Under the pieces are notes generated by a model. The model was not told where the DNA came from, did not search any database, and worked only from the letters and a program-made list of their open reading frames with translations. Made by a program: the position numbers and the translations under genes. A DNA stretch of 64,000 nt from a virus, in the IMG/VR virus record IMGVR_UViG_3300005965_000002, positions 124,001-188,000 of that record; one strand, written 5' to 3'. Positions 1,104 to 31,731 of the stretch are shown here, one piece after another; the first letter of the stretch is position 1, and each line of letters starts with the position of its first letter.

Positions 1104-3032
1104 ATGAATAAACTAGATGAAATCAGAGAGAAAATTAAGAATGGCTCTTCCTATGAGGAACTATCCAAGGAGTATCCTTTAACGATAAATGGATACAAGA
1201 AACTGGGAGGAGTAATAAAAAAGAAGAGAAAAGTAAATAGCCATTCGGTAGCTGCTGTATACGGGAAAAAGTTAAAGGACGGATTAAATACTATAGATAT
1301 AATAGTTCAAGATGAACAAAAAGGTAGAGAAAAGAAATTAAACAGATCTCATATTATAGGAACATTACTAGGAGACGCATCTATAATAGTCACCACAAAT
1401 AAATGCTACCGTAGAACTTTTTACTACACAGTGGCACATACATGGAGACAGATAGAATACACTAAACTTAACTATGAAAAATTAAAGCCATACGTATCCA
1501 GGGTTAATATATCGGAGCCTAGAGATTGTGACGGTTTTAAAGATCACTGTATTTATATAAATACGGAAAGTACATCTGATTTTTTAGAATATTACGATAT
1601 GTTTTATACCCATGGAAAAAGAGATTGTAATCCTAAGAAACATGTTTTTCGCAGCAATATAGCTACAGAAATAGATGTAGAAGTACTATCGTTTTGGTTA
1701 ATGGATGACGGTAATCAGAGGGGAAAAGCAAAAGGTGTATTTGAGTTGACCATAGGAATGCAGGATTTTTATACAGAGAGAGAAGTAAAATGCTTTGTTG
1801 ATATTCTAACAGATAAAATAGGTATACCTTTCTATTACAACTTTGGTTCTACTTCTATCGAGATATATAATAAAATAGAATCATCAGAAAAGGCTATTCA
1901 GTTATTATCTCCGTATATTATCCCTGACTTAAGTTACAAATTGGGTTTAGAACCTGACATGTGCGGTTCTGTTTATAGAGGTGAGATTTGGTATAAAAAC
2001 TGGCAAAAAAGTAGGATAAATATACAGCACCCCTTTTTAGAAGATAATGACATAGAAGACTACAGAAGATCTAAAGATCCAAAGTTTAAGGAAATGTTTA
2101 GAAGAGCTCTTTTATACCGTACGAAAGTAAGAGGGTTTCCACACGCATCTTATTCTAATTCAGAATTACTTGATCTATGGAATAATTTAAAAGAGAGTTC
2201 TTACGAGTGTGTTGAGGCGTATTTAAAACCTAATTACAATTTAAATAGATTTCCCAGTTATTTTTTCCCTAATAGATTCCGGTGTATTAAGAAAGGTCAT
2301 AAATCTGCTGTAGAGGTATTTAACAATAATAAGGATTTATCAAAGGTAATAGATAGACAGCTAAAATCAAAGGACAATATAAACAACAGTAATATAAGGA
2401 ACGCTATAGGTGGATACGGTGCTCCAGTACCCGCTCAGTTTAACCCGGCTTATGCTAGGTACTTCATTGCTAAATATAGTAATGAAGGGGACTTGATATT
2501 AGACCCTTCTGCAGGATGGGGTAGTAGACTAGCTTCATCTATTTCTTTAAATAGAAGTTATTACGGTATAGAGCCCAATAGTGAAACCGTAACAAACTTA
2601 AATAAAGAGATTTCTTGGTTTAAGAATAACAACATAGATGTTAATGCTACTATAGTAAAGGGTTGTTCAGAGGATATAGAATCTTATAGGGGTATTAAAT
2701 TCGATATGGCAATTACTAGTCCTCCGTTTTTTGACAAGGAGGTTTATAGTTATGAGGATACACAATCGATAAGAAGATACTCAGATTTTGAAGAGTGGTG
2801 TGAGAAATTCTTAAAGGTAATGATTTTAAATACATTTAATTCTTTGAAAAAAGGAAAATTTTTTGTACTAAATGTAGCTAATTATTCTGACTGTCATTTA
2901 GCATATATTTCTAAGTACTTGTTAAAAGATGTGGGGTATTCTATAAAGGATATAGTCTATACAAAACCTGTTTCTAGACCAGTTTCCGGTAAATCGTTAA
3001 AAGAGGAATTTATAGTAGCGGAGAAAATATGA
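1104..3032 (+). CDS. LAGLIDADG homing endonuclease fused to a DNA methyltransferase
   Basis: A 642-residue protein in two parts. Residues about 80-300 form a LAGLIDADG-type nuclease, with motif 1 IIGTLLGDAS (about 84-93) and motif 2 LSFWLMDDGN (about 195-204), each ending in the acidic residue that would bind catalytic metal. After a linker starting at RGFPHA (about 343), residues about 435-642 form a Rossmann methyltransferase. It has motif I DPSAGWGSR (about 467-475, the S-adenosylmethionine loop) and motif IV TSPPFF (about 538-543, typical of exocyclic-amino N4-cytosine or N6-adenine enzymes). Both halves appear intact. The gene lies after the capsid terminator and overlaps the next gene by ATGA. 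A longer reading frame begins at a TTG at 1062, but the promoter candidate favours 1104. The AT-rich codon use unlike the capsid gene fits an inserted selfish gene. Confidence 0.85.
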   Translation: MNKLDEIREKIKNGSSYEELSKEYPLTINGYKKLGGVIKKKRKVNSHSVAAVYGKKLKDGLNTIDIIVQDEQKGREKKLNRSHIIGTLLGDASIIVTTNKCYRRTFYYTVAHTWRQIEYTKLNYEKLKPYVSRVNISEPRDCDGFKDHCIYINTESTSDFLEYYDMFYTHGKRDCNPKKHVFRSNIATEIDVEVLSFWLMDDGNQRGKAKGVFELTIGMQDFYTEREVKCFVDILTDKIGIPFYYNFGSTSIEIYNKIESSEKAIQLLSPYIIPDLSYKLGLEPDMCGSVYRGEIWYKNWQKSRINIQHPFLEDNDIEDYRRSKDPKFKEMFRRALLYRTKVRGFPHASYSNSELLDLWNNLKESSYECVEAYLKPNYNLNRFPSYFFPNRFRCIKKGHKSAVEVFNNNKDLSKVIDRQLKSKDNINNSNIRNAIGGYGAPVPAQFNPAYARYFIAKYSNEGDLILDPSAGWGSRLASSISLNRSYYGIEPNSETVTNLNKEISWFKNNNIDVNATIVKGCSEDIESYRGIKFDMAITSPPFFDKEVYSYEDTQSIRRYSDFEEWCEKFLKVMILNTFNSLKKGKFFVLNVANYSDCHLAYISKYLLKDVGYSIKDIVYTKPVSRPVSGKSLKEEFIVAEKI

Positions 3033-3868
3033 AAATAGTATGTAAAATATGCGGGCACTCAGGATTAGACATATCATCGCATATAAGGCTAAAGCACAAT
3101 ATCTCTATTGTAGAGTATCGTGAAAAGTATAAATGCAGAGTAGTTAGTCCAGAGATAGATAAGAAAAGAAAAGAAACTACAAAGAAATTGTATGGGGATC
3201 CTAATTGGCGTAATAAAGACGCTCAAAAATTAATGTTCTCTGATTATAAAGGCGGGCATCCGTTTAAAGATCCTGAATGTAGAAAAAAAGCGTGTAAGAC
3301 AAAAGAAAAATTATATGGGGATCCTAATTACACTAATAGAGAAAAAGCAAAGAAAACTAATTTGGAGAGGTATGGGACTGAATATACATGTGCTTCAGAG
3401 CAAGTGATAGAAAAAAGGATAAAGACTCTAAAAAGCAGGTATGGGAAAGTATTTAATGTTGAGGAACCACATAACAAGACAAAACCTCCAGAAGATTTTA
3501 AGGAAGTATTTATTAAGGAGGGTTTGACATATGATGCCCTGTCTTATAAGTACGAAGTCTCTGTCCCTACTATAAAAAGGTGGGTAGACGAGCTATCTTT
3601 AAAAAGAGAACCTGTAAAATCTTCTGAAAAGAGCTACGAATCACCTGAAGAATTAGTATCAAAGTACTTGGATACATGTTACGAACTATCGAAACCTTTA
3701 TCATTTTATGATTACGGCAAAATAAAAGGTGGGAAGTATTGTAATAGACTTAAGAGGTTATTTAATAAAGGAAAAAAGTTTGAGCATATCAAACCCTTAT
3801 TGAATAGAGCAGTTACAGATCAGTCATTAAAGCATAAGGTTCTGTATGAAATGGAATCTCCGCTATAG
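3029..3868 (+). CDS. Zinc-finger and homing-endonuclease-type repeat DNA-binding protein
   Basis: A 279-residue protein starting inside the stop of the upstream gene (ATGA), so translation is probably coupled. The N-terminus has a zinc-finger-like CKICG...HIRLKH motif followed by EYREKY, reminiscent of MucR/Ros or phage recombination-endonuclease zinc fingers. Residues about 45-145 hold repeated units of the form KLYGDPNW/KLYGDPNY/ERYGTEYT/SRYGKVF, the type of short repeat found in the DNA-contacting arms of phage homing endonucleases and also present in the reverse-strand nuclease at 29302-31731. Residues about 160-195 look like a helix-turn-helix (YDALSYKYEVSVPTIKRWV). I see no nuclease active site. 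It may be a DNA-targeting partner of the flanking enzymes or the remnant of another homing endonuclease. Confidence 0.7.
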   Translation: MKIVCKICGHSGLDISSHIRLKHNISIVEYREKYKCRVVSPEIDKKRKETTKKLYGDPNWRNKDAQKLMFSDYKGGHPFKDPECRKKACKTKEKLYGDPNYTNREKAKKTNLERYGTEYTCASEQVIEKRIKTLKSRYGKVFNVEEPHNKTKPPEDFKEVFIKEGLTYDALSYKYEVSVPTIKRWVDELSLKREPVKSSEKSYESPEELVSKYLDTCYELSKPLSFYDYGKIKGGKYCNRLKRLFNKGKKFEHIKPLLNRAVTDQSLKHKVLYEMESPL

Positions 3869-3902
3869 ATATCTTTATGTTTTTTTAATTATAAATACTT
3901 TT

Positions 3903-3930
3903 TTGTATATTAGAATGAGCGTTAGATAAT
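3903..3930 (+). promoter_or_regulatory. Candidate sigma70-type promoter before the second nuclease-methyltransferase gene
   Basis: TTGTAT (3903-3908), a 16-base spacer and GATAAT (3925-3930), 30 bases before the ATG. The match is moderate in an AT-rich gap of about 90 bases that holds nothing else I recognise. Confidence 0.3.
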
Positions 3931-3960
3931 TCTTGGTTTCTAATAAAGGCCGGTAATAAT

Positions 3961-6000
3961 ATGCATAAGATATCAGATGATACTATAAAAGAGCTAATAA
4001 TCGATAGGAAAATGACAGATCACCAGGCAGCTAAGTATTTAGGTGTAAGCCGCATGACCGTATCTAGGAGAAGAAATAAAATAGGTATAGATCAGAAGCC
4101 TAAGCGTCCTGATGGTTACTATGAATTAACAGCGGAGCAGGAAAAAGAGTTAGAAAGGCACTACAACGAAGGTAGGAACGATTACGAAGTTTCAGAGTTA
4201 ACGTGTTTAGGCAGGAACAGATTACGTGAGTGGAGAAAAAAAAGAGGAATACTCTCTAAGTCTAATAAAAAAGGCTTAGGCAAAGAGGATGCTGAGAAAG
4301 CGATACTAATGAGAAATAGTGGTAGCACATATGAACAGATAGCTGCTGAGTTTGGTGTTAAAAGAACATCAATATCAAAACTACTTAAAAGAAGCGGGTA
4401 TAAAGAAGATAATATGTATAGGCCCACCAGCCCTAAATGGGCTGAATCCTATACTCTTACCAATGACCAGAGGTCTGTCATAATTGGAGATCTTTTAGGA
4501 GATGGTACTTTAGTATCTACTTCAGAAGAAAACGCATACTATCAGTCAGGCCACTCGAATTATCAAGAATTTTTTATAAGATGGAAATATAGTGTGTTAT
4601 CTCCGCTGACTTCGAGTGTGGGTAGTAAAAAAGATTATAGCGCTTACTCTGTAAAGACTTGGACATGCCGAGAACTAGGAGCATTAAAAAAAGTTTTTTA
4701 TCCCGAAGGTAATAAAGTTATTAATAAAGAGATCGCAGACACCATTAATGAGATCACGCTAGCAGTTTGGTATATGGGAGATGGGTCGTTAATTAGGAAA
4801 TCCCCTTATATACATATAGGCAAACAAGTGGATGCAAGTGTTTTTAAGGAATCCATTTTAAGGAATTTAAGCATATCTTCCTATGTGAGGGACTACAGTA
4901 AAGAGAGTCACTTAGTATTTGAGTCCGATTCTTTCTTTAAAAAAACGGCTCCATACATATTACCAGAATTTTATAAAAAGGTTCCTGAAAATTACCACAC
5001 TAACTTAGGGAAGTACTGGTCTGATAAGAGTTTGTTTCCTTATGTAACTTCTGATATTTATTTAAGATTACCGGATAAAGATAAGATACAAGTAGTTAAT
5101 GCTTTGTGCGCTTATTATAGAAAAAAAGGTTTTCCTTACCCGAGATGCAATAGAAGGGAGTTGCTCAAGTCTTATAAGTCTTTTTTAGATAAGGATAATG
5201 AGGTAGCAGCATTTAAGATATGTAACCATTTTATGCCTCATAGATATGATTGTCGTAGGTATGATAGCAACCCGATGGAAAATTGGAATAATGATAAACT
5301 TTTTAGAAAGTTTATTATTAACAGACTAACTTATGGAAAAGGTTATATATCAGATTCTGTCATTAGGACAGGTATGCAACTAAAAGGTGTAGTAGCTAAT
5401 TTCAGCCCTATGACTGCCCGTTACATCTATAATAACTATTTACCGGAAGGAGGATCTTCTCTAGATTTTAGTTCTGGTTTTGGTGGCAGGCTGCTTGGGT
5501 TTCTGGCTTCAAAACCCTCCGGTACGTATTTAGGTGTGGAGCCTTTTACAAAGTCTTATATTGGCTTAGAAAAAATGAAGGAATATTTTTTAGACCACAA
5601 CAAATCTAAGTCCGTAGATATAGTAAAATCTCCTTTTGAAGACTTATGTGGTAAACTTAGTGGTGGCTCGTTTGACATGGTATTTTCTTCTCCTCCTTAT
5701 TATGGCTTAGAGATTTATAGTGAAGACTCTACACAGAGTTTTATCCGTTACCCTAAATATGAAGATTGGCTAAATAACTTTTGGTATTTGGTTTTAGATG
5801 AAAGTATAAGGGTGCTGAAGAGGTCAGGTCATCTTATTTTTTCGATAGGAAACTATAAAAATTATGATCTAATACACGACACTAAATATTATTTAAGGCA
5901 GAAGAGCGTAGAAGAGAAAGGTTCCATTAATATTCATTATAAAAACGTATACCTTAATTCTAAGAAGAAAGAAGATGTATTCGTGTATAAAAAACTTTAA
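3961..6000 (+). CDS. LAGLIDADG homing endonuclease fused to a DNA methyltransferase (second copy)
   Basis: A 679-residue paralogue of the 1104-3032 product. The N-terminus has about three helix-turn-helix-like units: HQAAKYLGVSRMTVSRRR (21-38), a second near 60-95, and YEQIAAEFGVKRTSISKLL (124-142). They resemble the recognition helices common in phage homing endonucleases. LAGLIDADG motifs follow: IIGDLLGDGT (174-183) and LAVWYMGDGS (267-276), both with the catalytic acidic residue. The shared linker begins at KGFPYP (389-394). The C-terminal methyltransferase has motif I LDFSSGFGGR (501-510) and motif IV SSPPYY (576-581); SPPY is typical of amino methyltransferases. The two proteins align over linker, motif I and motif IV, but the first lacks the long helix-turn-helix arm. 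All catalytic motifs look intact. Confidence 0.87.
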   Translation: MHKISDDTIKELIIDRKMTDHQAAKYLGVSRMTVSRRRNKIGIDQKPKRPDGYYELTAEQEKELERHYNEGRNDYEVSELTCLGRNRLREWRKKRGILSKSNKKGLGKEDAEKAILMRNSGSTYEQIAAEFGVKRTSISKLLKRSGYKEDNMYRPTSPKWAESYTLTNDQRSVIIGDLLGDGTLVSTSEENAYYQSGHSNYQEFFIRWKYSVLSPLTSSVGSKKDYSAYSVKTWTCRELGALKKVFYPEGNKVINKEIADTINEITLAVWYMGDGSLIRKSPYIHIGKQVDASVFKESILRNLSISSYVRDYSKESHLVFESDSFFKKTAPYILPEFYKKVPENYHTNLGKYWSDKSLFPYVTSDIYLRLPDKDKIQVVNALCAYYRKKGFPYPRCNRRELLKSYKSFLDKDNEVAAFKICNHFMPHRYDCRRYDSNPMENWNNDKLFRKFIINRLTYGKGYISDSVIRTGMQLKGVVANFSPMTARYIYNNYLPEGGSSLDFSSGFGGRLLGFLASKPSGTYLGVEPFTKSYIGLEKMKEYFLDHNKSKSVDIVKSPFEDLCGKLSGGSFDMVFSSPPYYGLEIYSEDSTQSFIRYPKYEDWLNNFWYLVLDESIRVLKRSGHLIFSIGNYKNYDLIHDTKYYLRQKSVEEKGSINIHYKNVYLNSKKKEDVFVYKKL

Positions 6001-6080
6001 AAAGTGCGTACAAAACAGTATATTAGATTAACTTGATATTATTATCTCATATCAAAAACAAACAACATGAGGAGGCCCTA

Positions 6081-6278
6081 ATGGCTATTGCGGTAAAGAA
6101 GCCGCTGTCGAAGACAGCTCGAATCAAGCTTGTGCGTGCTGCTAAAAAGCAGGCAGGTAGAATGAAGCGTCCGGACATGATTAAGATGGTTCGGGACATG
6201 GACACCCGTGTTACCACAGCTGAAGCCGGTAAGATTGTAACCGAAGCTAACCAGGCAACAAAGGCTAAGAAGAAGTAA
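6081..6278 (+). CDS. Small basic protein
   Basis: A 65-residue Lys/Arg/Ala-rich protein (starts MAIAVKKPL, ends KAKKK). The start is set by the strong GAGGAGG site 8-14 bases before ATG 6081; an in-frame upstream extension lacks such a site. Codons are C/G-ending like the capsid gene, so it is probably a well-expressed virion or DNA-associated protein rather than part of the inserted block. Its own terminator follows. An inverted repeat (TTGATAT 6033-6039 / ATATCAA 6049-6055) lies in its leader. Function is unknown; DNA or capsid-interior binding is a guess from charge. Confidence 0.75.
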   Translation: MAIAVKKPLSKTARIKLVRAAKKQAGRMKRPDMIKMVRDMDTRVTTAEAGKIVTEANQATKAKKK

Positions 6279-6307
6279 GTATATACTTACATACATTTGA
6301 GATATTA

Positions 6308-6340
6308 AAGGCGAGGGCTTAGGCTCTCGCCTTTTTTATT
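6308..6340 (+). terminator. Rho-independent terminator
   Basis: Eleven-base arms AAGGCGAGGGC (6308-6318) and GCTCTCGCCTT (6323-6333), one G-T wobble, TTAG loop, followed by T-rich sequence. Confidence 0.88.
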
Positions 6341-6344
6341 TCAC

Positions 6345-6358
6345 ATAATCTTTTAATA
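6345..6358 (+). promoter_or_regulatory. Late-promoter-like motif, copy 1
   Basis: ATAATCTTTTAATA, 45 bases before the metallopeptidase ATG and directly after a terminator, as expected for a promoter starting a new transcript. One of eleven copies of the shared motif in this window. Confidence 0.6.
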
Positions 6359-6402
6359 CAAAAGCTCTTATGTAGGACTAAAGATATTTTAGAGAGATTT
6401 GT

Positions 6403-7080
6403 ATGAAAAAGACCATAACTTCTAATATTCTAGTATTTGCCTTTACGATATTAGAGAAGAATGCTCCTATAGAGATTGAAAACAAGTACGGGATAAAGGT
6501 AGATGAATCCGTAGAAGGTAAGTTTGCTGTTTTAATTCTCAAGGCTCTCGATAGGCTTCCTTTAGAGTTAACTAAAGCTTGTGGTATAGTTTCATTAGGA
6601 ATAAAGGATTTAGGTCCTTCTAAGGAATATTATCCCAACCATGGAGTCTACGTATCTAATACTCTTTACCTAAATAAATGGAATACCGAAGATCCCTGGG
6701 TAGTTGAGGATTCATCGGGTAATAGGTTAGATAGGTTCGACCACACCTTATACCATGAGATGGGTCATGGCTTAGACGAAGTACTGGGAGGTGAAAAAGA
6801 CCTTTCACTTCAGCCAGAATGGTTAGATTTGTCTGGGTGGAGCCCAGAGCCTAAAGATGGTTTAAAAAGAGTGATTATTCGTGAAGCAGGATCCCCTGAG
6901 TTAGTAGGGGAGTGGTGGTACAATCCGGAGGCTGGGTACACTAGATTTTATGCTAAAAGAAATCCTTGGGATGATTGGGCAGATAGTTTTGCTTATTATG
7001 TAGCAGGACTTAAAAGTTATCTTCCTGAATCCAAAATCAGTTATTTCAATAAGTTAATAGGCAAATTTTTCAAGGAATAG
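6403..7080 (+). CDS. Zinc metallopeptidase (HExxH, gluzincin-like)
   Basis: A 225-residue protein with a clear zinc-protease signature HEMGH (118-122) inside YHEMGHGLDE. A second conserved segment, NPWDDWADSFAYYV (187-200), is where this kind of peptidase has the third metal ligand (usually a Glu in an ExFAExF pattern); here the acids are Asp, a variation worth noting. No signal peptide is obvious. It opens a transcription unit behind a late-like motif and is followed 3 bases later by a gene of unknown function. Roles could be processing of virion proteins or an injected or lysis-stage protease; the sequence does not choose between them. Confidence 0.75.
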   Translation: MKKTITSNILVFAFTILEKNAPIEIENKYGIKVDESVEGKFAVLILKALDRLPLELTKACGIVSLGIKDLGPSKEYYPNHGVYVSNTLYLNKWNTEDPWVVEDSSGNRLDRFDHTLYHEMGHGLDEVLGGEKDLSLQPEWLDLSGWSPEPKDGLKRVIIREAGSPELVGEWWYNPEAGYTRFYAKRNPWDDWADSFAYYVAGLKSYLPESKISYFNKLIGKFFKE

Positions 7081-7082
7081 AT

Positions 7083-7880
7083 ATGAAGGAAGTAAGAAAT
7101 TATTTAGATAAATTAGCCGTGAAGCTAGCCAGCCATGGGTTTGAGGATTTTGCTTTTGATGTGTGGGATGCGGGTACCTCGATAATGAGGTACGCTTCTT
7201 CTAACCAGGTAGAGGAAGCTGAAAAAAGATATTACGAAACAAAAAAAGTAGATGATTTAGTAGAGTATCATAACTCGGGGCAAATGGATAGAGACATCGC
7301 AACTATGATAAAGGGCGGGAAGTCTTATAAAGAGATAGCAGAGAGAAAATTCAAGCAGATCCAACAGGATAACCCGCCGTATGCGCACGATCAAGGAGCT
7401 AAACAGTTAGCAGAAAGTTTAATGCGCGGTGTTCAGAGGGGTGCCATAAGAGCAGCTTCTTTGATTATGTCTAGAATGGCATGTTATCTAAAGGACCTGG
7501 GTTATGATAATGAGGCTCAGATACTGCATAGCTCCTTTTCTAAGGTAGCATCTAAGGGCCGTAACGTAGGTGATAAAGTAGAAAATTTTCAAGTAATTTC
7601 TCTTGAAGAAATGTATGAAAATTCTACTCACAAAGCTGAGCAGAAACCAATATTAGAAAATATCCAAATAATGGTTAAAACATATGAATCTGTACTAAAG
7701 CTTATTAAGAAATTTAAGAAAGATTACGAGAAGCTTATAAAGGTTTACTTGAAACAAACAGGTGAAGAAGTAGACAAAAAAGAATTAGAAGAATATTCAA
7801 CTAAAATGGTAGAGTTAATCACATACTATGACACTGCAATCAGTAATGAATTCAGGTCTCTCGCAAAGGCTATGGTATAG
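7083..7880 (+). CDS. Conserved-looking phage protein of unknown function
   Basis: A 265-residue, largely helical protein rich in Lys and Glu that I do not recognise. The middle has a helical segment of small residues and Arg (RGAIRAASLIMSRMACYL), and residues about 195-265 form a predicted coiled coil. It follows the metallopeptidase by 2 bases, so the two are probably co-translated. No catalytic motif is visible. It could be a virion or scaffold-like substrate of the neighbouring peptidase, which is inference from position only. Confidence 0.6.
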   Translation: MKEVRNYLDKLAVKLASHGFEDFAFDVWDAGTSIMRYASSNQVEEAEKRYYETKKVDDLVEYHNSGQMDRDIATMIKGGKSYKEIAERKFKQIQQDNPPYAHDQGAKQLAESLMRGVQRGAIRAASLIMSRMACYLKDLGYDNEAQILHSSFSKVASKGRNVGDKVENFQVISLEEMYENSTHKAEQKPILENIQIMVKTYESVLKLIKKFKKDYEKLIKVYLKQTGEEVDKKELEEYSTKMVELITYYDTAISNEFRSLAKAMV

Positions 7881-7911
7881 CCTGATCAAGAGCATTTTAA
7901 GGAGCCCCGTT

Positions 7912-8175
7912 ATGAAAGCTCAATTTTTGAGTGAGGCTAGCGGTAAAACTAGTTTTATGAGAGTGATTACCACTTTTATCGTGATTACTATTATGGGAGT
8001 GTTTTTGGCTCAGAATATTATGTCTATGATAAACGGTGGTGGGTTAGTTTCTTTGGGGGTGTCTGAAGCTTCATTGTTAGCCGGTCTCTTAGGTATGAAA
8101 GCTGCCCAAAGGTTTGGTGAACATAAATCAAGTTCTGTGCAGTCATTGCCCGATAATGAGATGCCTAAGTCGTGA
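7912..8175 (+). CDS. Small two-helix membrane protein, holin-like
   Basis: An 87-residue protein. ATG 7912 is chosen because AAGGAGCC lies just upstream; the frame is open further upstream but overlaps the previous gene. The layout is SFMRVITTFIVITIMGVFLAQ (first membrane helix, about 15-35), a Gly-rich turn, then a second hydrophobic stretch (about 48-65), then KAAQRFGE and a hydrophilic tail. This pattern occurs in many small phage membrane proteins annotated as holins or membrane accessory proteins. The next frame overlaps its stop. Confidence 0.6.
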   Translation: MKAQFLSEASGKTSFMRVITTFIVITIMGVFLAQNIMSMINGGGLVSLGVSEASLLAGLLGMKAAQRFGEHKSSSVQSLPDNEMPKS

Positions 8176-8210
8176 AAAAATCAGATATTCTACCATCTTT
8201 GGAGTACTAT

Positions 8211-8444
8211 ATGCCAAACCCAAAGGATTATGATAATAAGCAAGATTGGATGGATGCCTGTATGTCCCAACAAAAGGACGAAGGCAAAAATATGAAGAAA
8301 GAAGATGAGAGGGATCAGGCAGTAGCCATTTGTCTAAATATGTGGAGAGATAAGAATAAGAAGACTGCCAGTAAGGGCAAGGTAGCGAGCGCCGCCAAAG
8401 CTTTATATAAATTATCAAAGAAATTAGAAGATCTTGGAAAGTAA
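8211..8444 (+). CDS. Small phage protein with a Cys-containing N-terminal motif
   Basis: A 77-residue protein beginning MPNPKDYDNKQDWMDACM. The start is set by GGAG 8 bases upstream. A GTG at 8172 overlapping the previous stop (GTGA) could give 13 more residues. The pattern MP-P...DxxxxCM...E...RDQAVAICLNMW resembles the short conserved N-terminal motif seen in front of phage prohead proteases and related head proteins. The Lys-rich tail is probably disordered. No protease follows, so a free-standing version of that motif is the best description. Function is unknown. Confidence 0.6.
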   Translation: MPNPKDYDNKQDWMDACMSQQKDEGKNMKKEDERDQAVAICLNMWRDKNKKTASKGKVASAAKALYKLSKKLEDLGK

Positions 8445-8445
8445 A

Positions 8446-9669
8446 ATGAAATATCTCATATCCGATTCCCTGAGACGTATTGCATCCGCTTTAGAAGTTG
8501 ATCTAGATAATGTTAAGAATAGCAAAAAGCCGGTTGTTTTCTTAGGTGGAAATGCTTCTGATAATTCCTGGAGAGAAGATATAAAAAAGGAATTTTCCGA
8601 TAAGATTATGTTTTTGGATCCCTTTGATAAAGATTGGGAAGCAGAAGAAAACATATATAAGGAATTAGAAGCATTGATGAAATCGGACAACGTCGTTTTC
8701 TATAAGGGCGGAGAAGGATCTGAAAAAGAAAAAGAATTTCTTGATCAGGTCAAAAAAAGTAATTACGAAGATTTTGACGACTTGAGCGAGCTAAAGAATT
8801 ATCTAAAAAAGATAAGCGGTAAAATGGAAAAAACTGCTTATCCTATAGTAGGTCAACCCGCTTCTGACCTTAAGTTGGAGAAGCTCGATAAAGAATCCAT
8901 CGAGGCTTTAATAGAGGATTTAAAACAGGGTGTGGATATTAAGGTAGACCCAGAAGTAAAAAAGATTCCCAATATGTCCGATTTGCATGAGTTGAAAGCT
9001 GAAGACATAAAAAAAGAGATAGCTAAAGGTAATCCTTTTTTAAAAGTGTTGCTTGATAAGTATAAGAGTTTACCCGGGAGTAAAAACCCAGCGCTCAAAT
9101 ATGATAAAGAAAAACATATGTATATACCAACTGAATTGGGGCAAATGAGTAAATCAGCAAAGCAAGGAATGGTATATGACCGGAGTTCTACTCAATATGA
9201 TTTTCCTGAATTAATAGCTGATAAAGTTCTGCGCTGGTCTAAAAAGAATGTCCCGGATATTGCACTAGGAGAAGATGGCAGAGAAGATGAGATTCATGTT
9301 ACTATTCTTTATGGGTTGTTTACTACAAATCCTTCCGAAGTAGAAGATATTATAAAAAAGTATAACATAGAACCTTTTGAGATAAGACTATCCTTAATTA
9401 CTGCTTTTTTAAATGGTGACCAGGATGTTTTGAAGATAGATGTAGAATCCTCTGGACTCCACAACCTCCATAAGCTACTCCAAGAAAATATCAAGAATGA
9501 TAACAAATATCCGGAGTACCGACCCCACGTAACTATAGCCTACCTTAAAAAAGGCGAATCAGAAAATTACATAGGTAGAGATGATTTTCAGGGAATATCG
9601 TGCAAGGTGAATAATATTGTTTTTAGCTCCAGAACGGGCGATAAAATAGACATTCCTCTTATTGGTTGA
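8446..9669 (+). CDS. Deoxyribosyltransferase-like domain fused to a 2H phosphoesterase
   Basis: A 407-residue protein with two recognisable ends. Residues about 30-105 carry VVFLGGNASDNSWRED, then DPFDKDWEAEENIY and a NVVFY strand, the layout of nucleoside 2-deoxyribosyltransferase-like domains (FLGG...SxWR...W...E). The C-terminus has two H-x-T motifs, HVTILYG (residue 284 on) and HVTIAYL (residue 361 on), about 77 residues apart, the signature of 2H phosphoesterases (RNA ligase/cyclic phosphodiesterase family). The middle is Lys/Glu-rich linker. The start is ATG 8446 with GGAAAG upstream; an in-frame TTG is at 8434. Phage 2H enzymes of the Acb1 group degrade cyclic-nucleotide defence signals, so an anti-defence role is possible, but an RNA-repair or nucleotide role fits equally. 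Confidence 0.7.
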   Translation: MKYLISDSLRRIASALEVDLDNVKNSKKPVVFLGGNASDNSWREDIKKEFSDKIMFLDPFDKDWEAEENIYKELEALMKSDNVVFYKGGEGSEKEKEFLDQVKKSNYEDFDDLSELKNYLKKISGKMEKTAYPIVGQPASDLKLEKLDKESIEALIEDLKQGVDIKVDPEVKKIPNMSDLHELKAEDIKKEIAKGNPFLKVLLDKYKSLPGSKNPALKYDKEKHMYIPTELGQMSKSAKQGMVYDRSSTQYDFPELIADKVLRWSKKNVPDIALGEDGREDEIHVTILYGLFTTNPSEVEDIIKKYNIEPFEIRLSLITAFLNGDQDVLKIDVESSGLHNLHKLLQENIKNDNKYPEYRPHVTIAYLKKGESENYIGRDDFQGISCKVNNIVFSSRTGDKIDIPLIG

Positions 9670-9671
9670 TA

Positions 9672-9685
9672 ATATTCTATTAATA
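9672..9685 (+). promoter_or_regulatory. Late-promoter-like motif, copy 2
   Basis: ATATTCTATTAATA directly after the previous stop and 62 bases before the next ATG. Confidence 0.55.
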
Positions 9686-9746
9686 ATACACATAAGTAGA
9701 TTCTATAAGATCTCAGACTATATTCATATCCAGAAAGGAGTATGAG

Positions 9747-10853
9747 ATGGCAGAACGTAACTATGTCGCTCTCGTTGATTTCAATGTCAACATCGACAAC
9801 GGTAAGGAGACAGTAAAAATAACGGCTGGCTCTGAGTTTTCATACGACGGGTTGTATGTTACTTTTGGTGATTCCAGAGGAATGTGCAAACCTCTAGGTA
9901 AGATGGCTGGAGAATGGTTTTCAGTATCCAATAATCAGCCAGCACAGACTAAGCCTGCAGCGCCTAACCCCAATACCACTAAATCTAGAGTAGAGAATAG
10001 TGATGAAGTACCGAACGCTCCTGTAGTGAATGCGGGGAAAGATCGAGAACTAGAAGGCATGGTGGATAACTATGAAAAGGGTACTTACAAAAATCCTTCA
10101 GCAAAAGTTATCCACGATGATGAGGCTGTAGTCGGCCAGGTAAAGAATACCGACCAGAACGCAGTAAAAAATACGACAGGTGTTCAGATGAATGAGCAAC
10201 CGGATAGCGAAAAAAGGGTTGTTTATGAGGAAGAAAGGGTTGCTAAGGAAACCGTCCCCCAGAAGCCTGATGAGGGTGAAAAGCACCTGAAGGTAGAAGG
10301 CGAAGGAGATGGCGTTTTAGTTAAGGAAACCAGTCCTCTGTCTGAAGTAGAAAAGCTTAGGAAGCAGTTAGCAGAAGCTGAGGCTCGTCTTGCCGAATCA
10401 CAGAAACCCCAGGTTTCTGTCGAAGAGGATGCAGTTAAAAAGACTTCTGCTCTGAATAACCAATCTACTGATATTGGTTCTTCCACTCAGGCTCAAACTA
10501 TAGAAAAGCCAGCAACTCCAAAGGGGAAACTTTCCGGAAAAAAGACTGGAACTTTGAAGAGAGCGACAAACTCAGGTAGACCTGTAGTGATAGAAGAGCA
10601 AGAGGGTACTGTAGTTGGTAAGGTAAAAAATACCAACGTTAATCAGACAAAGGATGGTATTACCATCCGTACCCGTGTGAAGAATATGGATGATGTGGAG
10701 GAGGCGGCGGTTACCTATGGTAACTCTGTACCGGATGAACCCTCTGTAGAAATAACCGGGTCTGAACCATCAGCAGTTGACGCCTCTGATGTCGGTGTGC
10801 CTGTTCAAAAGGATGCTGATATCGACGTAGAGGATTTACTTAGCGAAATATAA
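9747..10853 (+). CDS. Disordered virion-type protein with a short N-terminal domain
   Basis: A 368-residue protein with a good AAAGGAG site. Residues 1-70 form a small beta-rich domain (YVALVDFNVN...GSEFSYDGLYVTF). The remainder is Pro/Lys/Glu/Thr/Val-rich and probably disordered, with one coiled-coil block (VEKLRKQLAEAEARLAES). Two degenerate repeats VVGQVKNTDQN and VVGKVKNTNVNQ are about 155 residues apart. Nothing enzymatic is seen. Size, composition and location suggest a head or neck accessory protein, which is inference. Confidence 0.6.
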   Translation: MAERNYVALVDFNVNIDNGKETVKITAGSEFSYDGLYVTFGDSRGMCKPLGKMAGEWFSVSNNQPAQTKPAAPNPNTTKSRVENSDEVPNAPVVNAGKDRELEGMVDNYEKGTYKNPSAKVIHDDEAVVGQVKNTDQNAVKNTTGVQMNEQPDSEKRVVYEEERVAKETVPQKPDEGEKHLKVEGEGDGVLVKETSPLSEVEKLRKQLAEAEARLAESQKPQVSVEEDAVKKTSALNNQSTDIGSSTQAQTIEKPATPKGKLSGKKTGTLKRATNSGRPVVIEEQEGTVVGKVKNTNVNQTKDGITIRTRVKNMDDVEEAAVTYGNSVPDEPSVEITGSEPSAVDASDVGVPVQKDADIDVEDLLSEI

Positions 10854-10864
10854 GGTAGGTTCAA

Positions 10865-21048: not shown

Positions 21049-21546
21049 ATGCTTAGAACTACTGCTGTACAATCTATGAAACTGCTTGCTTCCAAGAATT
21101 TTGAATTGGGTGAGGTAGTTTTTAAAGGTTTTGATTCGGTCGAAGAGTACGAGTCTGAAGGTACTATTAATATCACTAGAGATAACTTTGATCAACAAAT
21201 AGAGCACGAATACAACCAGCTGGATATTTGGGCAGAGCTTTCAATTTCATATTCTGGTGATTGCCCGGATAGCTATAGAGTAATTAATTCCATGATTATG
21301 GATTGGGTTGATGATAACGAGGATAAAATTAAAGAGATCGTTAATCCAGAATTGAAAAAATTTCTAAATGATAAATATCCTGACATAGATGATTCCGATT
21401 TGGATACTGACTTTGATGATTATATATGGGAAGATCAGGTTGATTATACCCCTGAAGTTGATATAGAAAATAAGAAAATAGATTTTTCTGTTGAGCTAGT
21501 CCTTGAGATAGCTGATGAAAACGAGGACGAAGAGGATGAAGAATAA
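21049..21546 (+). CDS. Acidic protein of unknown function
   Basis: A 165-residue, strongly acidic protein ending in a run of Asp/Glu (ENEDEEDEE), starting 1 base after the previous stop. Alternating strands suggest a small beta-rich fold at about 25-90. No motif recognised. Confidence 0.55.
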   Translation: MLRTTAVQSMKLLASKNFELGEVVFKGFDSVEEYESEGTINITRDNFDQQIEHEYNQLDIWAELSISYSGDCPDSYRVINSMIMDWVDDNEDKIKEIVNPELKKFLNDKYPDIDDSDLDTDFDDYIWEDQVDYTPEVDIENKKIDFSVELVLEIADENEDEEDEE

Positions 21547-21572
21547 AAACAAAGAGGGAATTTAGCGATACA

Positions 21573-21719
21573 ATGGTTAACAACAATGTCGCTGATGGGC
21601 CTGACAGATCCAGACCAGATTATAGAGAAGTTAAGCCTGTTAACCAATCTACTAATGTTACTTCCACTAATAGAAGTGGTGGCCCATTAGTGGGTGAGCT
21701 GCAGACAAAACAAAAATAA
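21573..21719 (+). CDS. Small hydrophilic open reading frame
   Basis: Forty-eight codons from ATG 21573 to TAA, product polar and Asn/Ser/Pro-rich (begins MVNNNVADGPDR, ends ELQTKQK). A GAGGG lies about 14 bases upstream, longer than ideal. It fills the gap between well-packed genes and resembles the next small frame in composition. Confidence 0.4.
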   Translation: MVNNNVADGPDRSRPDYREVKPVNQSTNVTSTNRSGGPLVGELQTKQK

Positions 21720-21729
21720 GGAGTGAAAA

Positions 21730-21876
21730 ATGCCTAGAGATACAAGACCTGGAGGAAACAGGATTCAGCCGGATGCTTTTCCTCATGAGCAAACAAATCA
21801 GACTAAAGCTGAGAAAGTAACACAAGTACCGAGCGGTACAATTGTCGGAGAAAAAAAGGATTACATAAACGGTTAA
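21730..21876 (+). CDS. Small hydrophilic protein
   Basis: Forty-eight codons from ATG 21730 with a clear AGGAGTG site. The product is polar and basic (begins MPRDTRPGGNRIQ, ends GEKKDYING). A terminator follows at once, marking it as the last gene of the unit. Function unknown. Confidence 0.55.
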   Translation: MPRDTRPGGNRIQPDAFPHEQTNQTKAEKVTQVPSGTIVGEKKDYING

Positions 21877-21899
21877 CCTTCAGCTTAATCAGATCCACT

Positions 21900-21929
21900 A
21901 AGGCTGGGCAGAAATGTCCAGCCTTTTTT
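21900..21929 (+). terminator. Rho-independent terminator
   Basis: Arms AAGGCTGGGCA and TGTCCAGCCTT around GAAA (21911-21914), one G-T wobble, followed by TTTTT. Confidence 0.88.
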
Positions 21930-21947
21930 GTTTTAAAGGCATAGGTA

Positions 21948-21961
21948 ATAATGTTTTAATA
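21948..21961 (+). promoter_or_regulatory. Late-promoter-like motif, copy 5
   Basis: ATAATGTTTTAATA directly after a terminator and 42 bases before the fibre gene start. Confidence 0.6.
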
Positions 21962-22002
21962 AATCTTGTTATTGATATCTATGTTTCCCGGAGGTATTAA
22001 TC

Positions 22003-26643
<4,641 letters not shown>

Positions 26644-26646
26644 GAT

Positions 26647-27717
26647 ATGGCTGATACAGCAGTAAGCTCGGTACAAATAGGACAAAAGATAGTATCGTCC
26701 GCTGATTCTTCAGATACTGTAACAATTAGTTCCGTAGACACTACAAAGTCTGTCCTTTTTTATAGCGTACGAATGTCTGAAGGATCTGGGCCTGACGAAG
26801 AGAGAATAGTAGGAGAATTAACAGACAGCACTACTTTAACATTTACTAAAAGAAGCTCTGGTTTAGATATTATAGTAGAGTGGAAAGTTGTAGAGTTTAG
26901 CTCCGGTGTGTCTGTGCAAAGAGGGAGCATCACGGGGGCATCCTCAACGGAAGATGTGACTATTACCAATGTATCAGATACTACAAAATGTTTTGTTCTG
27001 GTAAATTCTTTTTATGATGATTCTTCCTATAATAGGACTCCTGAAGTAATTACTGGATATCTGTCTTCGACTACAAATTTGAGGTTAGAGTGTGGTAGTG
27101 GTAACACAAACGGCATATGGGTATGGCAGGTAGTAAAAATAGACAATGCCAGTGTTCAGACTGGTGAGTTTACTATGACAACCATAAGCGCTACTGCTAC
27201 TATCTCGTCGGTGACTACTTCGAAATCTTTTGTTGTATCAGGGGCTCGGGATTCCGCCGCGAAGGTTAACGGTCCAGATGACTGGTCTATTACTTGTGAT
27301 TTAACAAATTCTACAACAGTAACTGCTTACAGAAAAAATAACGCTAGAGATCTTGTAGTTAGGTATCACGTTGTATCTCTGTCTGATACCGATTTTTCTG
27401 TCCAAAGGAATTTAGAAAGTATTACTTCCACATCTGCTCAAAATATTACAATTTCATCAGTAGATACCGATAGATCCGTGCCTATCGTAGGGGGTAAAGG
27501 TAATTTTAGTGCTATTACCAGTGAGGGCAGCACCAGTAACGGACTCCACCATATAGGAACTACTTTAATTCTTACCTCTTCAACTAATTTGCAGGTAGAA
27601 AATGAAGGGTATACCTCTGGTGATGACGTGGATCTATATTGGCAAGTTCTTGAGTTTCCCGGAGAAGCATTGGCTGTTATCCCAATGCAGATCATCTGGA
27701 TCCCAAGCATAAACTAA
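26647..27717 (+). CDS. Fibre-associated repeat protein
   Basis: A 356-residue Ser/Thr/Val-rich beta protein, 3 bases after the collagen-like gene. It has about four similar units of about 85-90 residues, each with a VTISSVDTTKS-type segment (DTVTISSVDTTKSV, DVTITNVSDTTKC, ATISSVTTSKS, NITISSVDTDRS), a strand and a final VVWxVV/VVSL strand. Such tandem beta units occur in tail-fibre or receptor-binding accessory proteins. Position suggests a partner of the collagen-like fibre. Confidence 0.65.
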   Translation: MADTAVSSVQIGQKIVSSADSSDTVTISSVDTTKSVLFYSVRMSEGSGPDEERIVGELTDSTTLTFTKRSSGLDIIVEWKVVEFSSGVSVQRGSITGASSTEDVTITNVSDTTKCFVLVNSFYDDSSYNRTPEVITGYLSSTTNLRLECGSGNTNGIWVWQVVKIDNASVQTGEFTMTTISATATISSVTTSKSFVVSGARDSAAKVNGPDDWSITCDLTNSTTVTAYRKNNARDLVVRYHVVSLSDTDFSVQRNLESITSTSAQNITISSVDTDRSVPIVGGKGNFSAITSEGSTSNGLHHIGTTLILTSSTNLQVENEGYTSGDDVDLYWQVLEFPGEALAVIPMQIIWIPSIN

Positions 27718-27731
27718 ATAATGTATTAATA
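27718..27731 (+). promoter_or_regulatory. Late-promoter-like motif, copy 6
   Basis: ATAATGTATTAATA right after the previous stop and 42 bases before the next ATG. Confidence 0.6.
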
Positions 27732-27772
27732 AAAAATTACCTACGGGTTTAAAGATAAATAAGGAGAGATAA

Positions 27773-29305
27773 ATGTCAGTAGCTTTTTATCCGGGTCAAA
27801 CGCTAGAAAGCACAGACCTTAATATTATCATAAGAAACGACACAGGAACCCCTGTAGATCCGTTTTATATTCGTTACTCGCTTTTTGATAATACTACTGG
27901 TATTCCCGTCCTTATAGGAGCTCCAAATAGAGTGCCCGCGACCACCGGGGTTGGTAAGTACTATGCAAATGCTACTTTACCACTAGATTCCAATATAGGC
28001 GATTGGATGATCCATTGGGATTTTAGAGAAACCTCAGGCAGTCCGATGGTACAGGTAGTCCAAGAATTTAATGTAGTGGACCAGGAAGTACGAATAACTG
28101 TATCCGATAATAATAACATGAATGATATGATCCGTAGAGTCAGAGTGCTCTTGCGAGACAATAATCCCGACAGAAATTATCGCTTCAGACCACCAGCTTC
28201 AGAAAAGTTCCTACAATCTCAAGCACAGGTTTTTGGTTATATCTGGGAAGATGAAGAAATACTTGAATACATTTTAATGGCTATTGATGACTTTAATGCT
28301 GCCCCTCCTGTAACCGGGGTAACTATAGATAGTATCCCGCTGAGATGGCGTACAGCCGTTATTCTTAGGGCTTGTTCGTTTGCCTGTTTTGCTATTGCAA
28401 TGAACTGGATAGCTGATGAGTTTTCCGTAAAAGGGGACGAAAAGGTTAAGGTTAAGGACGAGGAAGGTAACGTTTATGAATTATCATTAGAAGAACTATT
28501 TGATGTAATATATGGTGATAAAATTTTGGAGATGGAGAAAGAAGTACGGGACGAATATAAGAAAGTTATGAAGGAACTAGATAGTGATCAATTAGTTATG
28601 AATAGAGAAAAAAACACATTTGTAAAAACCATAAAAAAAGTTTTCAGGAAGATAAAGGATATCCTTGTAAAGAAAAAAGCATACAATGTTGATAAGATAA
28701 AAGAATCTTTTTATAAAGGTAGGCTAGAAGTAAAAAGCTTATCGGAAGATAAGGGGAATGTTGATTGGGTACCTATAAAGGATATATATAGGCACAATTC
28801 CCTATATAAAAAGATGATAAAGGTAGTTACGGATAAAGGAGATGTAGTAGTAACCGACGACCACAGTTTGTTTTCTTGGGAGACAAAAAAGCCTATAGCA
28901 GCTAATAAGTTGAAGATAGGGTATCCAATAATAGCTAATGAAAATAATATTTTAGTAAAAGCTGTCATAAGAAGTATAGAAGATAATCCCGCCGAAAATT
29001 ATACATATGATTTATGCGTACCTGGAACCGAGAGCGCTTTTTTGTCCTCTGGTATTTTGGTTCATAATTCTTATACCATATCAGGCGTATCTCTGGATGT
29101 TGATAAAAGTGCAAAATATGAAGGTATGAAGAACAACTTTATCACTGAGTATGATAAGTTAAAAGAACAAGCCAAGAGATCTATTAAGATCATCCGTGGC
29201 CTTCGTCAACCGAGATACGGTGTGGGCATTTCCTCAGCACTCGGACCCTATAGTAGCCCGGGTGTCCAAGCCCGCCGCAACTTTATATCTGGCTTTAGAA
29301 ATTAA
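27773..29305 (+). CDS. Virion structural protein interrupted by an intein
   Basis: A 510-residue precursor with an AAGGAGAG site. Residues 1-110 are the same beta domain as the N-terminus of the collagen-like fibre (both have a YxVRYxxxD...IVGTPNR/VLIGAPNRVP pattern). Residues 110-217 and 433-510 are the remaining host protein, helical with a conserved-looking RFRPP and WEDEEILEYILMAIDDFN. Residues 218-432 are an intein. After splicing, ...NWIADEF joins SYTISG..., giving a 295-residue mature protein. A connector or baseplate-fibre adaptor role is likely. The stop overlaps the stop of the reverse-strand nuclease by sharing TTAA. Confidence 0.75.
   Translation: MSVAFYPGQTLESTDLNIIIRNDTGTPVDPFYIRYSLFDNTTGIPVLIGAPNRVPATTGVGKYYANATLPLDSNIGDWMIHWDFRETSGSPMVQVVQEFNVVDQEVRITVSDNNNMNDMIRRVRVLLRDNNPDRNYRFRPPASEKFLQSQAQVFGYIWEDEEILEYILMAIDDFNAAPPVTGVTIDSIPLRWRTAVILRACSFACFAIAMNWIADEFSVKGDEKVKVKDEEGNVYELSLEELFDVIYGDKILEMEKEVRDEYKKVMKELDSDQLVMNREKNTFVKTIKKVFRKIKDILVKKKAYNVDKIKESFYKGRLEVKSLSEDKGNVDWVPIKDIYRHNSLYKKMIKVVTDKGDVVVTDDHSLFSWETKKPIAANKLKIGYPIIANENNILVKAVIRSIEDNPAENYTYDLCVPGTESAFLSSGILVHNSYTISGVSLDVDKSAKYEGMKNNFITEYDKLKEQAKRSIKIIRGLRQPRYGVGISSALGPYSSPGVQARRNFISGFRN
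28424..29068 (+). mobile_element. Endonuclease-free intein (215 residues, Ser1)
   Basis: It begins with Ser at SVKGDEKVKVKDEEGN (block A style). Block B is VVVTDDHSLF with the conserved His. Block F is YDLCVPGTESAFL. It ends GILVHN followed by Ser (+1), i.e. the C-terminal His-Asn and nucleophile. No LAGLIDADG or HNH motif is present. About 70 extra Lys/Glu-rich residues between blocks A and B make it larger than a minimal intein, possibly a tether or decayed insert. Confidence 0.85.
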
Positions 29306-31731
29306 TTTTCTTTATTGATTATATTTATTTGTCTTTTTATCCATCTTTTATTTTCATTTAAATGCTCAGCCATTTCTTGATATGTCATAGTGCCCCTATT
29401 ATTCTTTATAAAGTATATTTTATATTTATTTTTTCGGCTTTTAGTACTACCTATAGGATTCTTCGGAGACAGAATTCCATCTTTTATCATAGATCTTACT
29501 CTGCCACTGACCCATCTTTTAGTTTCGTTTAAGTTTATAGCTATTTTTTCCTGGGTCAAGCTTTGGTAGTTATCTAAGATATATTGATCTTTTTCTTTTG
29601 TGATTCTAGAGTTGTTACTTATCCTTTTGCTTGTTCTTTTGTTTTTAGATATTTTTATCAAGTTACTATAAAAGTCGCTAAAATCATCAACGGGTACACT
29701 ATTTCTTTTAGGGTAAACTTTATCTTTATATGTTTTAAGCTTTTCCAAAATTTGTTTTTCTCTTTTGTTACAGCTTGTGAGAAGTGCGTATTTATGTTTT
29801 TTTGAGATAGGTATCTTTACTGATTTATTAATAATGGATTTTATATCTTTGTACCACTGATGTAATATTTCCTTAGGTATCTTTTTTATATTTTTATATC
29901 CGTTGTCTTTAAACCATTCACTTTTAGTTTCTATTCCTTTACTTTTGCACCAAGCTTTAAAAGCTGAAGTTCTTTTTAAGCTTTGTTCAGAGAAGGGTAA
30001 ACCATTTTTAATTTCTTTATTTTGGTATACATAACCGGTTCCGAAATCATCCCCAAGATACGAAAAGTTACAACTTTGATATATAGTACCTATTTCATTT
30101 GCCTTTGGATCTGCGTAGCAGACAAATAGCCTCTTAGGTGTGTTTTTAGTCATCCACTTACAGGAAAACATTATTAACCTACTCCCTAGGTTTTTCGGTG
30201 TCCATGAAGCAGTAGCTCCCCGTTGTATAAGGGCTTCAAAGTGTTTCGTATTCTCTCCTAATAACTTAGAATAAGAGTTTGGCTCATTAATTAGAACTAC
30301 GCCGCCCAAAAATCCTTTATATCGTGCGGTAAAAACCCATTTAGGATTGTTTCCTATTGTACCTAACCATTCATACTTTTCTATAAAGTGTTTAATTTCT
30401 TTTGTATATTTTTCTTGCTTTAGCACAAAGTCTTTTGCCTTTATCTTTGAATAGTCAAAGCTTATATTTTCTAAATCATTTTTTAATGTAGATACTTTTA
30501 TTTTGTATTGATGGCAAACAGATTTAGACGCTTTTTTGTTTAACTCATCGGTGATAAATTCTATAATATCTCCTTTTTTTTCATGGTCTACGACCAACCT
30601 GGAGTCAAATCTTACTAAATTATCTATAACGGAGTTTTGCCTTTCATCTCTAATAGATGTTTTTAAGATATTTTCCTTTCTAGGCCCTTTCTTAAAATCT
30701 TTAATCTTACCATGCCAGAAATATCCATCATATTGTACCCACACGTTAATAGATGGTAGATAGAAATCAATATTAGATTTTGAAATAGGGTGGTATACCT
30801 GGAACTCGGTATAGGGGTCTATCTTTTTAAGATACATAAGAAATTTTATTTCTTCATCGGAAGAGCTAAAGGTATTTTTTTCTTTTGATGTGTTTAATAC
30901 TTTTTTATAGATTTCCTCATTCTGCAGGGGGCTAGGTACTCCATATTTTTTAATGTTGGTTTCTTTTATTTTTTCTTTTGTAGGTTCATCCTGAAATATG
31001 TTGTCTACTCCATACTTTTTGTTTAATGTAGATTTTACCTTATTCCTTACTGCAGGGTCTTGGGAAGGATACTCTACTCCTCTTCTTTTAAGATTAGTTT
31101 CTCGGCTTTTTCTTTTCATAGATTCTAATTGAGTGGTGTACTGCACTCCGTATTTAGCTTGTACGGCTTTGGAGGTACCTAGGACATTGTCTTTTTTTAT
31201 AATATCCGGGTTTCTACTTAGACCCAATTGGTTAGCTTTATACCTAATAGATTTCCATGATCTACTAAATTTATTGATTAAAAATTCTTTAGTATTGTTG
31301 ACATATATTTCTTTCAAAAGATTTATTTCTTCCTCTTTCCAGAAATCTTCTCTTTCTGGTACTTTTTTACCACCTTCAATAGATTCTTTTTTTACTATTT
31401 CCGGATCTCTCCTTAAACCCATTGCATAAGCTTTCCCCCAAATTCCAGACCAGGGTCTATTTAATTTGTCTTGGATTTCTTTTTTAGTACCAATTGGGTA
31501 TATTGACTTAAGAGTCGATAACTCTTCCTCGGACCAGGAATCTTTTCTTTTCCCCCTAGTGGCTCGGTCTTTTCCAATCACAGTGGCGTCTCTTTTTAAT
31601 CCTAGCTTTTTTGAGCGTCGATAGATAGTAGCCCATTCTTTATCGAGTAGTTTAGTCAATTCCGATTTTCTTTTATTTTCAAAATTTTCTCTTAGGATCT
31701 TATCTTCTTCAGGAGTCCATCGTTTAGCCAT
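29302..31731 (-). CDS. Homing endonuclease with Myb-like repeats fused to a Mom-like GNAT DNA-modification domain
   Basis: An 809-residue protein, the only clear gene on the reverse strand. Three Myb/SANT-like units (about 1-50, 63-110, 128-175; each W...EE...L...W..I..+...LGL) are followed by homing-endonuclease-type repeats (about 188-285; KKYGVDNIFQ, KKYGVPSPLQ, related to those at 3029-3868). Then comes a PD-(D/E)xK or Vsr-like nuclease (about 290-395; SNIDFYLPSINVWVQYDGYFWH). Residues about 440-575 resemble phage Mu Mom: WLGTIGNNPKW, LIQRGATASWTPKNLGSRLI, and YADPKANEIGTIYQSCNFSY. Two helix-turn-helix units close the protein (about 712-750, 775-805). AAGGAT precedes the ATG, and a sigma70-like promoter lies upstream. 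Its stop overlaps that of the intein-containing gene. Confidence 0.82.
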   Translation of the reverse strand: MAKRWTPEEDKILRENFENKRKSELTKLLDKEWATIYRRSKKLGLKRDATVIGKDRATRGKRKDSWSEEELSTLKSIYPIGTKKEIQDKLNRPWSGIWGKAYAMGLRRDPEIVKKESIEGGKKVPEREDFWKEEEINLLKEIYVNNTKEFLINKFSRSWKSIRYKANQLGLSRNPDIIKKDNVLGTSKAVQAKYGVQYTTQLESMKRKSRETNLKRRGVEYPSQDPAVRNKVKSTLNKKYGVDNIFQDEPTKEKIKETNIKKYGVPSPLQNEEIYKKVLNTSKEKNTFSSSDEEIKFLMYLKKIDPYTEFQVYHPISKSNIDFYLPSINVWVQYDGYFWHGKIKDFKKGPRKENILKTSIRDERQNSVIDNLVRFDSRLVVDHEKKGDIIEFITDELNKKASKSVCHQYKIKVSTLKNDLENISFDYSKIKAKDFVLKQEKYTKEIKHFIEKYEWLGTIGNNPKWVFTARYKGFLGGVVLINEPNSYSKLLGENTKHFEALIQRGATASWTPKNLGSRLIMFSCKWMTKNTPKRLFVCYADPKANEIGTIYQSCNFSYLGDDFGTGYVYQNKEIKNGLPFSEQSLKRTSAFKAWCKSKGIETKSEWFKDNGYKNIKKIPKEILHQWYKDIKSIINKSVKIPISKKHKYALLTSCNKREKQILEKLKTYKDKVYPKRNSVPVDDFSDFYSNLIKISKNKRTSKRISNNSRITKEKDQYILDNYQSLTQEKIAINLNETKRWVSGRVRSMIKDGILSPKNPIGSTKSRKNKYKIYFIKNNRGTMTYQEMAEHLNENKRWIKRQINIINKEN

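Follow-up and report, generated by a model that had tools for sequence, protein, structure and literature searches.

How can a free-standing homing nuclease be directed at a gene that stays intact in the phage carrying it? The question is posed by three genes in a 64,000-nucleotide stretch of viral DNA (the window, 124001-188000 in a virus record of 258,580 bp), each of which joins a homing-type nuclease to a DNA-modification domain beside a conserved virion gene (Table 1). A possible answer is that such an element marks the gene that it targets. The capsid protein encoded in the window has counterparts in an uncultured 485-kb phage (74% identity), Tunturiibacter phage Tunturi_5 (50%) and Bacillus phage G (39%), identities by which the source virus is classed, on sequence grounds, as a large tailed phage of the wider group of these capsid relatives.

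Nuclease and modification domains in the window

Table 1. Genes at the two insertion sites, in window coordinates
Gene	Position	Strand	Domains and context
Major capsid protein	94..975	+	phrog_2522 (1.1e-53); intact; directly upstream of site 1
LAG1	1104..3032	+	One protein: LAGLIDADG ~1341-1943, predicted amino-methyltransferase ~2028-2969
ZF	3029..3868	+	ROS/MUCR-type zinc finger, DUF7487 repeats, HTH; 4-bp overlap with LAG1
LAG2	3961..6000	+	HTH array 3961-4407, LAGLIDADG 4456-4995, predicted amino-methyltransferase 5083-5940
Gene past site 1	6403..7080	+	Directly after the capsid gene (481 bp) in L113
Tail-associated gene	27773..29305	+	Adjoins site 2; assigned by profile search
EDxHD-Mom	29302..31731	-	HTH-like and DUF7487 repeats (to about 30871), EDxHD nuclease (about 30864-30532), Mom GNAT (about 30525-29662), C-terminal HTHs
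Small gene	31857..32165	+	Far flank of site 2; synteny with empty-site G008

The longest open reading frame of LAG1 opens at a TTG (1062); the ATG at 1104 is the start taken in the original prediction. Pfam profile searches identify LAGLIDADG_2 in LAG1 (E 1.2e-13) and LAG2 (3.3e-22), with domain scores of 51.8 and 79.6 bits against a curated cut-off of 25, and N6_N4_Mtase in LAG1 (4.2e-16) and LAG2 (3.1e-4). The last of these matches is under Pfam's own cut-off, and the methylase call for LAG2 is backed by phrog_12517 (1.2e-16), by relatives that are 38-42% identical and by a structure model (AlphaFold2, mean pLDDT 89) in which Foldseek found methyltransferase folds. A profile of the family matches I-SceI over its LAGLIDADG part (6e-34) and, over its other part, a putative modification methylase (1.4e-9) and N4-cytosine methyltransferases (5e-5), with 2zie and 8s9n among the matches. 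The modification domain of the LAG-type proteins is accordingly named here a predicted DNA amino-methyltransferase (N6A/N4C), with motif I and the SPP[Y/F] motif IV intact.

In EDxHD-Mom, profile searches identify the DUF7487 repeats (2.7e-16) and Mom (6.2e-10; 39.5 bits against a cut-off of 27.1), and the Vsr-like nuclease part matches an annotated homing endonuclease, F-LimIII. The structure model (pLDDT 79) is weaker than that of LAG2; its top PDB match is the Mom protein of phage Mu (8bv8, E 8e-7). Profile and fold together point to the Mom family, for which the predicted activity is adenine modification in DNA. Two nuclease residues, E294 and D322, are invariant in 9/9 sequences and QYDG-(Y/F)WH is found in 7/9; the assignment of the EDxHD letters to these residues is our own reading.

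The original prediction was of three genes of one design, arrived at by convergence within one genome, in which every free-standing homing nuclease is armed with a modification domain. Profile searches bear out the domains of all three genes, but LAG1 and LAG2 are homologous across both domains (4e-33) and therefore represent one lineage, leaving two independent lineages in this genome; the real argument from convergence is the one across phages, taken up below. Likewise, the statement about every nuclease holds for the window and fails for the genome as a whole: the 258,580-bp record also has two free-standing HNH genes (46052-46843 and 47444-47977; PF01844), and a modification domain is absent from both, as it is from the record's LAGLIDADG inteins.

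Fused, unarmed and nuclease-less relatives

Scanning viral contigs with a single protein, LAG1 or EDxHD-Mom, yielded no relatives, and profile scans were needed. Relatives were gathered from IMG/VR by a profile scan, a capsid-gene scan, a Mom scan and from stretches at site 2. They include 85 nuclease-modification fusion ORFs, or 68 after 90% clustering (the window's own genes counted), raw counts in which fusions are over-represented, the profile scans having been seeded with fusion proteins; the capsid-based sample described below is free of that bias. The 68 comprise LAGLIDADG with methyltransferase (53), EDxHD with Mom (9), LAGLIDADG with ParB (2), a PD-(D/E)xK-like nuclease with methyltransferase (2; L141 and L165, tentatively labelled by eye), LAGLIDADG with Mom (1) and LAGLIDADG_3 with methyltransferase (1). 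Since nearly all of these cases lie on other contigs, fusion is not a matter of chance; the existence of a class of nuclease-modification fusion genes is certain. In both LAGLIDADG-ParB cases (L107 and L117) a PAPS reductase/DUF3440 gene comes next. The Mom domain of the window is 48% identical to that of the LAGLIDADG-Mom protein of L105, so that one modification module is found on two unrelated nucleases. Directly before that LAGLIDADG-Mom gene, in the same hotspot, is a TnpB-like (OrfB_IS605, Cas12f-like) gene (L105/L106, 10104-11219). In a 1095-residue protein of L025 (3594-6881), two methyltransferase domains of different kinds come after LAGLIDADG. Of 50,697 annotated phage records a single one, from an uncultured huge phage, has the full LAGLIDADG-methyltransferase fusion, and the class has perhaps been missed for that reason.

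The catalytic Asp residues of both LAGLIDADG motifs (D181 and D274 in LAG2 numbering) are present in 56/56 non-redundant sequences. The original prediction had singled out poorly conserved modification domains as telling against it; the motif I Asp of the methyltransferase is retained in 55 of the 56, and the SPP[Y/F] residues in 50-54. The methyltransferase also has the lower dN in three informative pairs (0.096 against 0.144 for the nuclease, 0.146 against 0.279, and 0.203 against 0.265), pairs in which dS is saturated or high.

Many nuclease-only relatives were likewise to count against the prediction, and they do exist, making up 45 of the 98 non-redundant LAGLIDADG rows. They are not an outright refutation, because 31 of them lie close to a capsid gene, and for about half of these (15/31) a modification gene (methyltransferase, Mom or PAPS/ParB) is found no more than 5 kb away; the same holds for none of the 14 located elsewhere (0/14). 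PAPS reductase and ParB genes follow nuclease-only LAGLIDADG genes in L005, L073 and L085, and in L180 a Mom gene overlaps one. The elements with no partner imply that modification is not the sole means of protection, or that partners were missed. In L132 (9448-11817) a LAGLIDADG_3 intein splits the PAPS reductase that lies near a LAGLIDADG gene on the capsid side.

The converse loss is also found. In L108, whose capsid protein is 86% identical, the LAG1-type protein lacks both catalytic Asp residues and much of LAGLIDADG, but its methyltransferase is still intact and the ZF partner gene is present. The third gene of L142 joins LAG2-type HTHs straight to a methyltransferase, with no LAGLIDADG between them (the contig ends before motif IV). 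Such antidote-only forms are what a self-immune element would be expected to leave behind as it decays, and they are consistent with a modification that guards the cut site of the nuclease.

The ZF protein, in which the profile search found no nuclease domain, had been proposed as a possible targeting subunit, a proposal that gains support from its surroundings elsewhere. ZF homologs come after LAG1-type genes in L108, L134, L142 and L042, with the whole order capsid-LAG1-ZF-LAG2 repeated in L134 and L142. Its C-terminal part is fused onto the ends of LAGLIDADG-methyltransferase proteins in L110, L112, L119, L121-L123, L125 and L133, and the LAG1-type nuclease of L055 ends in a zinc-finger region resembling ZF. 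This conserved synteny and these fusions suggest that ZF is probably a DNA-targeting or DNA-binding partner.

Two insertion sites and their turnover

Related genomes were searched, as the original prediction had proposed, for the same insertion sites with and without the genes, and occupied, alternative and empty alleles were found at both. Site 1 directly follows the capsid gene, homologs of which (73-92% identical) are present in 80 contigs; 63 of the 85 fusions start less than 400 bp downstream of a capsid gene. The site is occupied in many relatives and empty in L113. In the capsid-based sample, which was unseeded by fusions and retains some near-duplicate contigs, 38 of 65 loci have a LAG, methyltransferase, Mom or ParB gene within 6 kb; a modification module is included at 29 of these occupied sites and nine are nuclease-only. 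Capsid proteins that are 93-96% identical can be followed by nucleases that are only 27-30% identical, implying that this locus is replaced quickly. On the tree of the 98 nuclease rows no fewer than 14 changes of the methyltransferase label are needed, nine of them forced by well-supported branches. The capsid-side hotspot may be old, to judge by the position of Bacillus phage G gp28 (L433, 5461-6393); this gene, right after the capsid gene, reads by eye as a zinc-finger PD-(D/E)xK nuclease with no modification domain.

Site 2 is the 3' end of the tail gene, the reading frame of which is kept in the carriers examined. Its occupants are EDxHD-Mom in seven genomes including the window (on the opposite strand) and LAG-methyltransferase in three (on the same strand), so that all 10/10 carry a modification domain. 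In G008 the site is cleanly empty, with ~27 bp from the stop of the tail gene to the start of the homolog of 31857-32165. (Gene 32401-33747 was dropped as a further synteny anchor, having been found in one relative only.) Taking the two sites together, Mom at site 2 is combined with a methyltransferase at site 1 in the window genome, G006 and G012, and with ParB/PAPS at site 1 in G004; in G005, G007 and G013 both sites have a methyltransferase, and G008 is armed at neither. The selection for armed nucleases that had been proposed is well supported by the variety of pairings, the interchange at a given site, the conserved active sites and the derivatives that have lost the nuclease and kept the methyltransferase.

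The tail gene itself contains a 214-residue intein (about 28427-29068), relatives aligning as residues 1-218 joined to 433-509; no endonuclease domain was recognised in it. The relatives lack this intein, except that the G017 copy of the gene also appears to be interrupted.

Proposed homing and self-protection, and the alternatives

We think it probable that these genes are free-standing homing endonucleases with an immunity function of their own, much in the manner of restriction-modification. The LAGLIDADG or EDxHD nuclease would be aimed by its HTH, NUMOD or zinc-finger arrays at a long target, predicted to lie within or close to a conserved virion gene (that of the capsid for site 1, of the tail for site 2), and would cut the copy of that target in a co-infecting phage without the element; repair from the carrier would then copy the element in, or the rival would be disabled. 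Since the element sits beside the conserved gene and not inside it, the carrier would keep its own target intact, and the modification domain (amino-methyltransferase, Mom acyltransferase, or ParB with PAPS reductase) would mark that target and so leave it uncut. The net result would be restriction-modification whose specificity is of homing length, often within a single polypeptide. This reading presumes that nuclease and modification domain share their target DNA; the two are fused in the 68 non-redundant proteins, though nuclease-only relatives exist. An element might also be safe merely because its insertion splits the target.

Several known systems come close. Mom-nuclease fusions in jumbo phages have already been described: Iyer et al. 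2021 (PMC7824862) reported Mom fused to REase-fold nucleases, with the prediction that self DNA is modified and that of others attacked. Those proteins resemble EDxHD-Mom in joining a Mom GNAT domain to a restriction-fold nuclease in a single phage protein. They differ in not being cast as homing elements (the word 'homing' is absent from that paper), and in having no LAGLIDADG partner, no fixed insertion sites and no interchange with methyltransferases. They also suggest a competing explanation, that the present genes are phage weapons of the restriction-modification type, in which modification gives broad protection to the phage's own genome and the nuclease hits host or superinfecting DNA. 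Section 3.4.7 of PMC7824862 predicts as much for the Mom-REase fusions, and the relatives of the Mom and methyltransferase domains are mostly stand-alone phage modification enzymes. We nevertheless regard this as rather unlikely, in view of the fixed position of both intergenic sites, found empty in some genomes and filled by different elements in others, the allele turnover between conserved flanking genes, the homing-type NUMOD/HTH arrays and the I-SceI-like core with its presumably long targets. The two explanations overlap, modification being protective in both.

Less probable still, and by a good measure, is that the modification domain is an accessory unrelated to the nuclease, which would mark DNA for virion-gene expression or packaging, for example, and be retained for its own sake. 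Its position after the capsid gene (site 1) and the persistence of nuclease-only relatives at the same site would fit; what would not is that several nuclease families are recurrently joined to three chemistries unrelated to one another, and that otherwise unarmed nucleases have modification genes near them. That LAGLIDADG is a mere DNA-binding domain of an epigenetic methyltransferase, as the nuclease-dead L108 and nuclease-less L142 forms might suggest, is rejected as highly improbable on the universal retention of both catalytic aspartates.

The homing endonucleases with an immunity function that we prefer as an interpretation share catalytic cores and DNA-binding repeats with known free-standing LAGLIDADG and EDxHD/Vsr-like enzymes (I-SceI-type, I-Bth0305I, F-LimIII), which are also intergenic, with occupied and empty alleles, but consist of DNA-binding and nuclease parts only; the word 'methyl' is absent from a large survey of phage homing endonuclease genes (PMC10448857). 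The PhiPA3 homing endonuclease gp210, which is intron-encoded, mediates interference competition between co-infecting phages (PMC11620839) and resembles the present genes as a homing nuclease, but no methylation is mentioned there. As in the known ParB and PAPS-reductase (DUF3440, IbrA/IbrB-like) pairs, ParB_N lies here beside PAPS_reduct+DUF3440; the differences are that ParB is fused to LAGLIDADG (L107, L117), or that the pair follows LAGLIDADG genes, and the chemistry is putative.

Single-chain restriction-modification enzymes of Type IIC/IIG also unite a nuclease and an amino-methyltransferase in one polypeptide. The phage genes have instead a homing-type nuclease with DNA-binding arrays, and occupy phage insertion hotspots in place of host defence loci. 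LAGLIDADG fused to a methyltransferase, Mom or ParB, or exchange at a fixed site, met with no report in the open-access literature searched, an absence that is weak evidence of novelty. The broader proposition is of a self-immune homing class that bridges homing and restriction-modification: nucleases of two LAGLIDADG families, of the EDxHD type and possibly of another PD-(D/E)xK type would be freely recombined with chemically unrelated modification modules, whether amino-methyltransferase, Mom or ParB/PAPS reductase, and the combinations would occupy fixed sites next to essential virion genes, some of them with a separate zinc-finger targeting subunit; we put the chances for and against it as evenly balanced. 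It would link homing endonucleases to restriction-modification systems, it predicts phage-phage exclusion loci with antidote-only derivatives, and it would supply natural enzymes that may unite very long cutting specificity with matched protection.

Other genes of this phage deserve brief mention. The window encodes a 2'-5' RNA ligase/phosphoesterase domain (8434-9669) with a further match to the anti-CBASS protein Acb1 (1.7e-6), and a 1546-residue collagen-like Gly-X-Y repeat protein (22003-26643), probably a tail fibre. Selfish elements are unusually abundant in the 258,580-bp record: a volactin (actin-like) gene in the window (43218-45329) has a LAGLIDADG intein inside it, and further apparent inteins, read by eye, lie outside the window at record positions 89102-92920, 114696-118139 and 246121-250020, two of them in a helicase-like gene and the others in portal-like and DNA polymerase genes.
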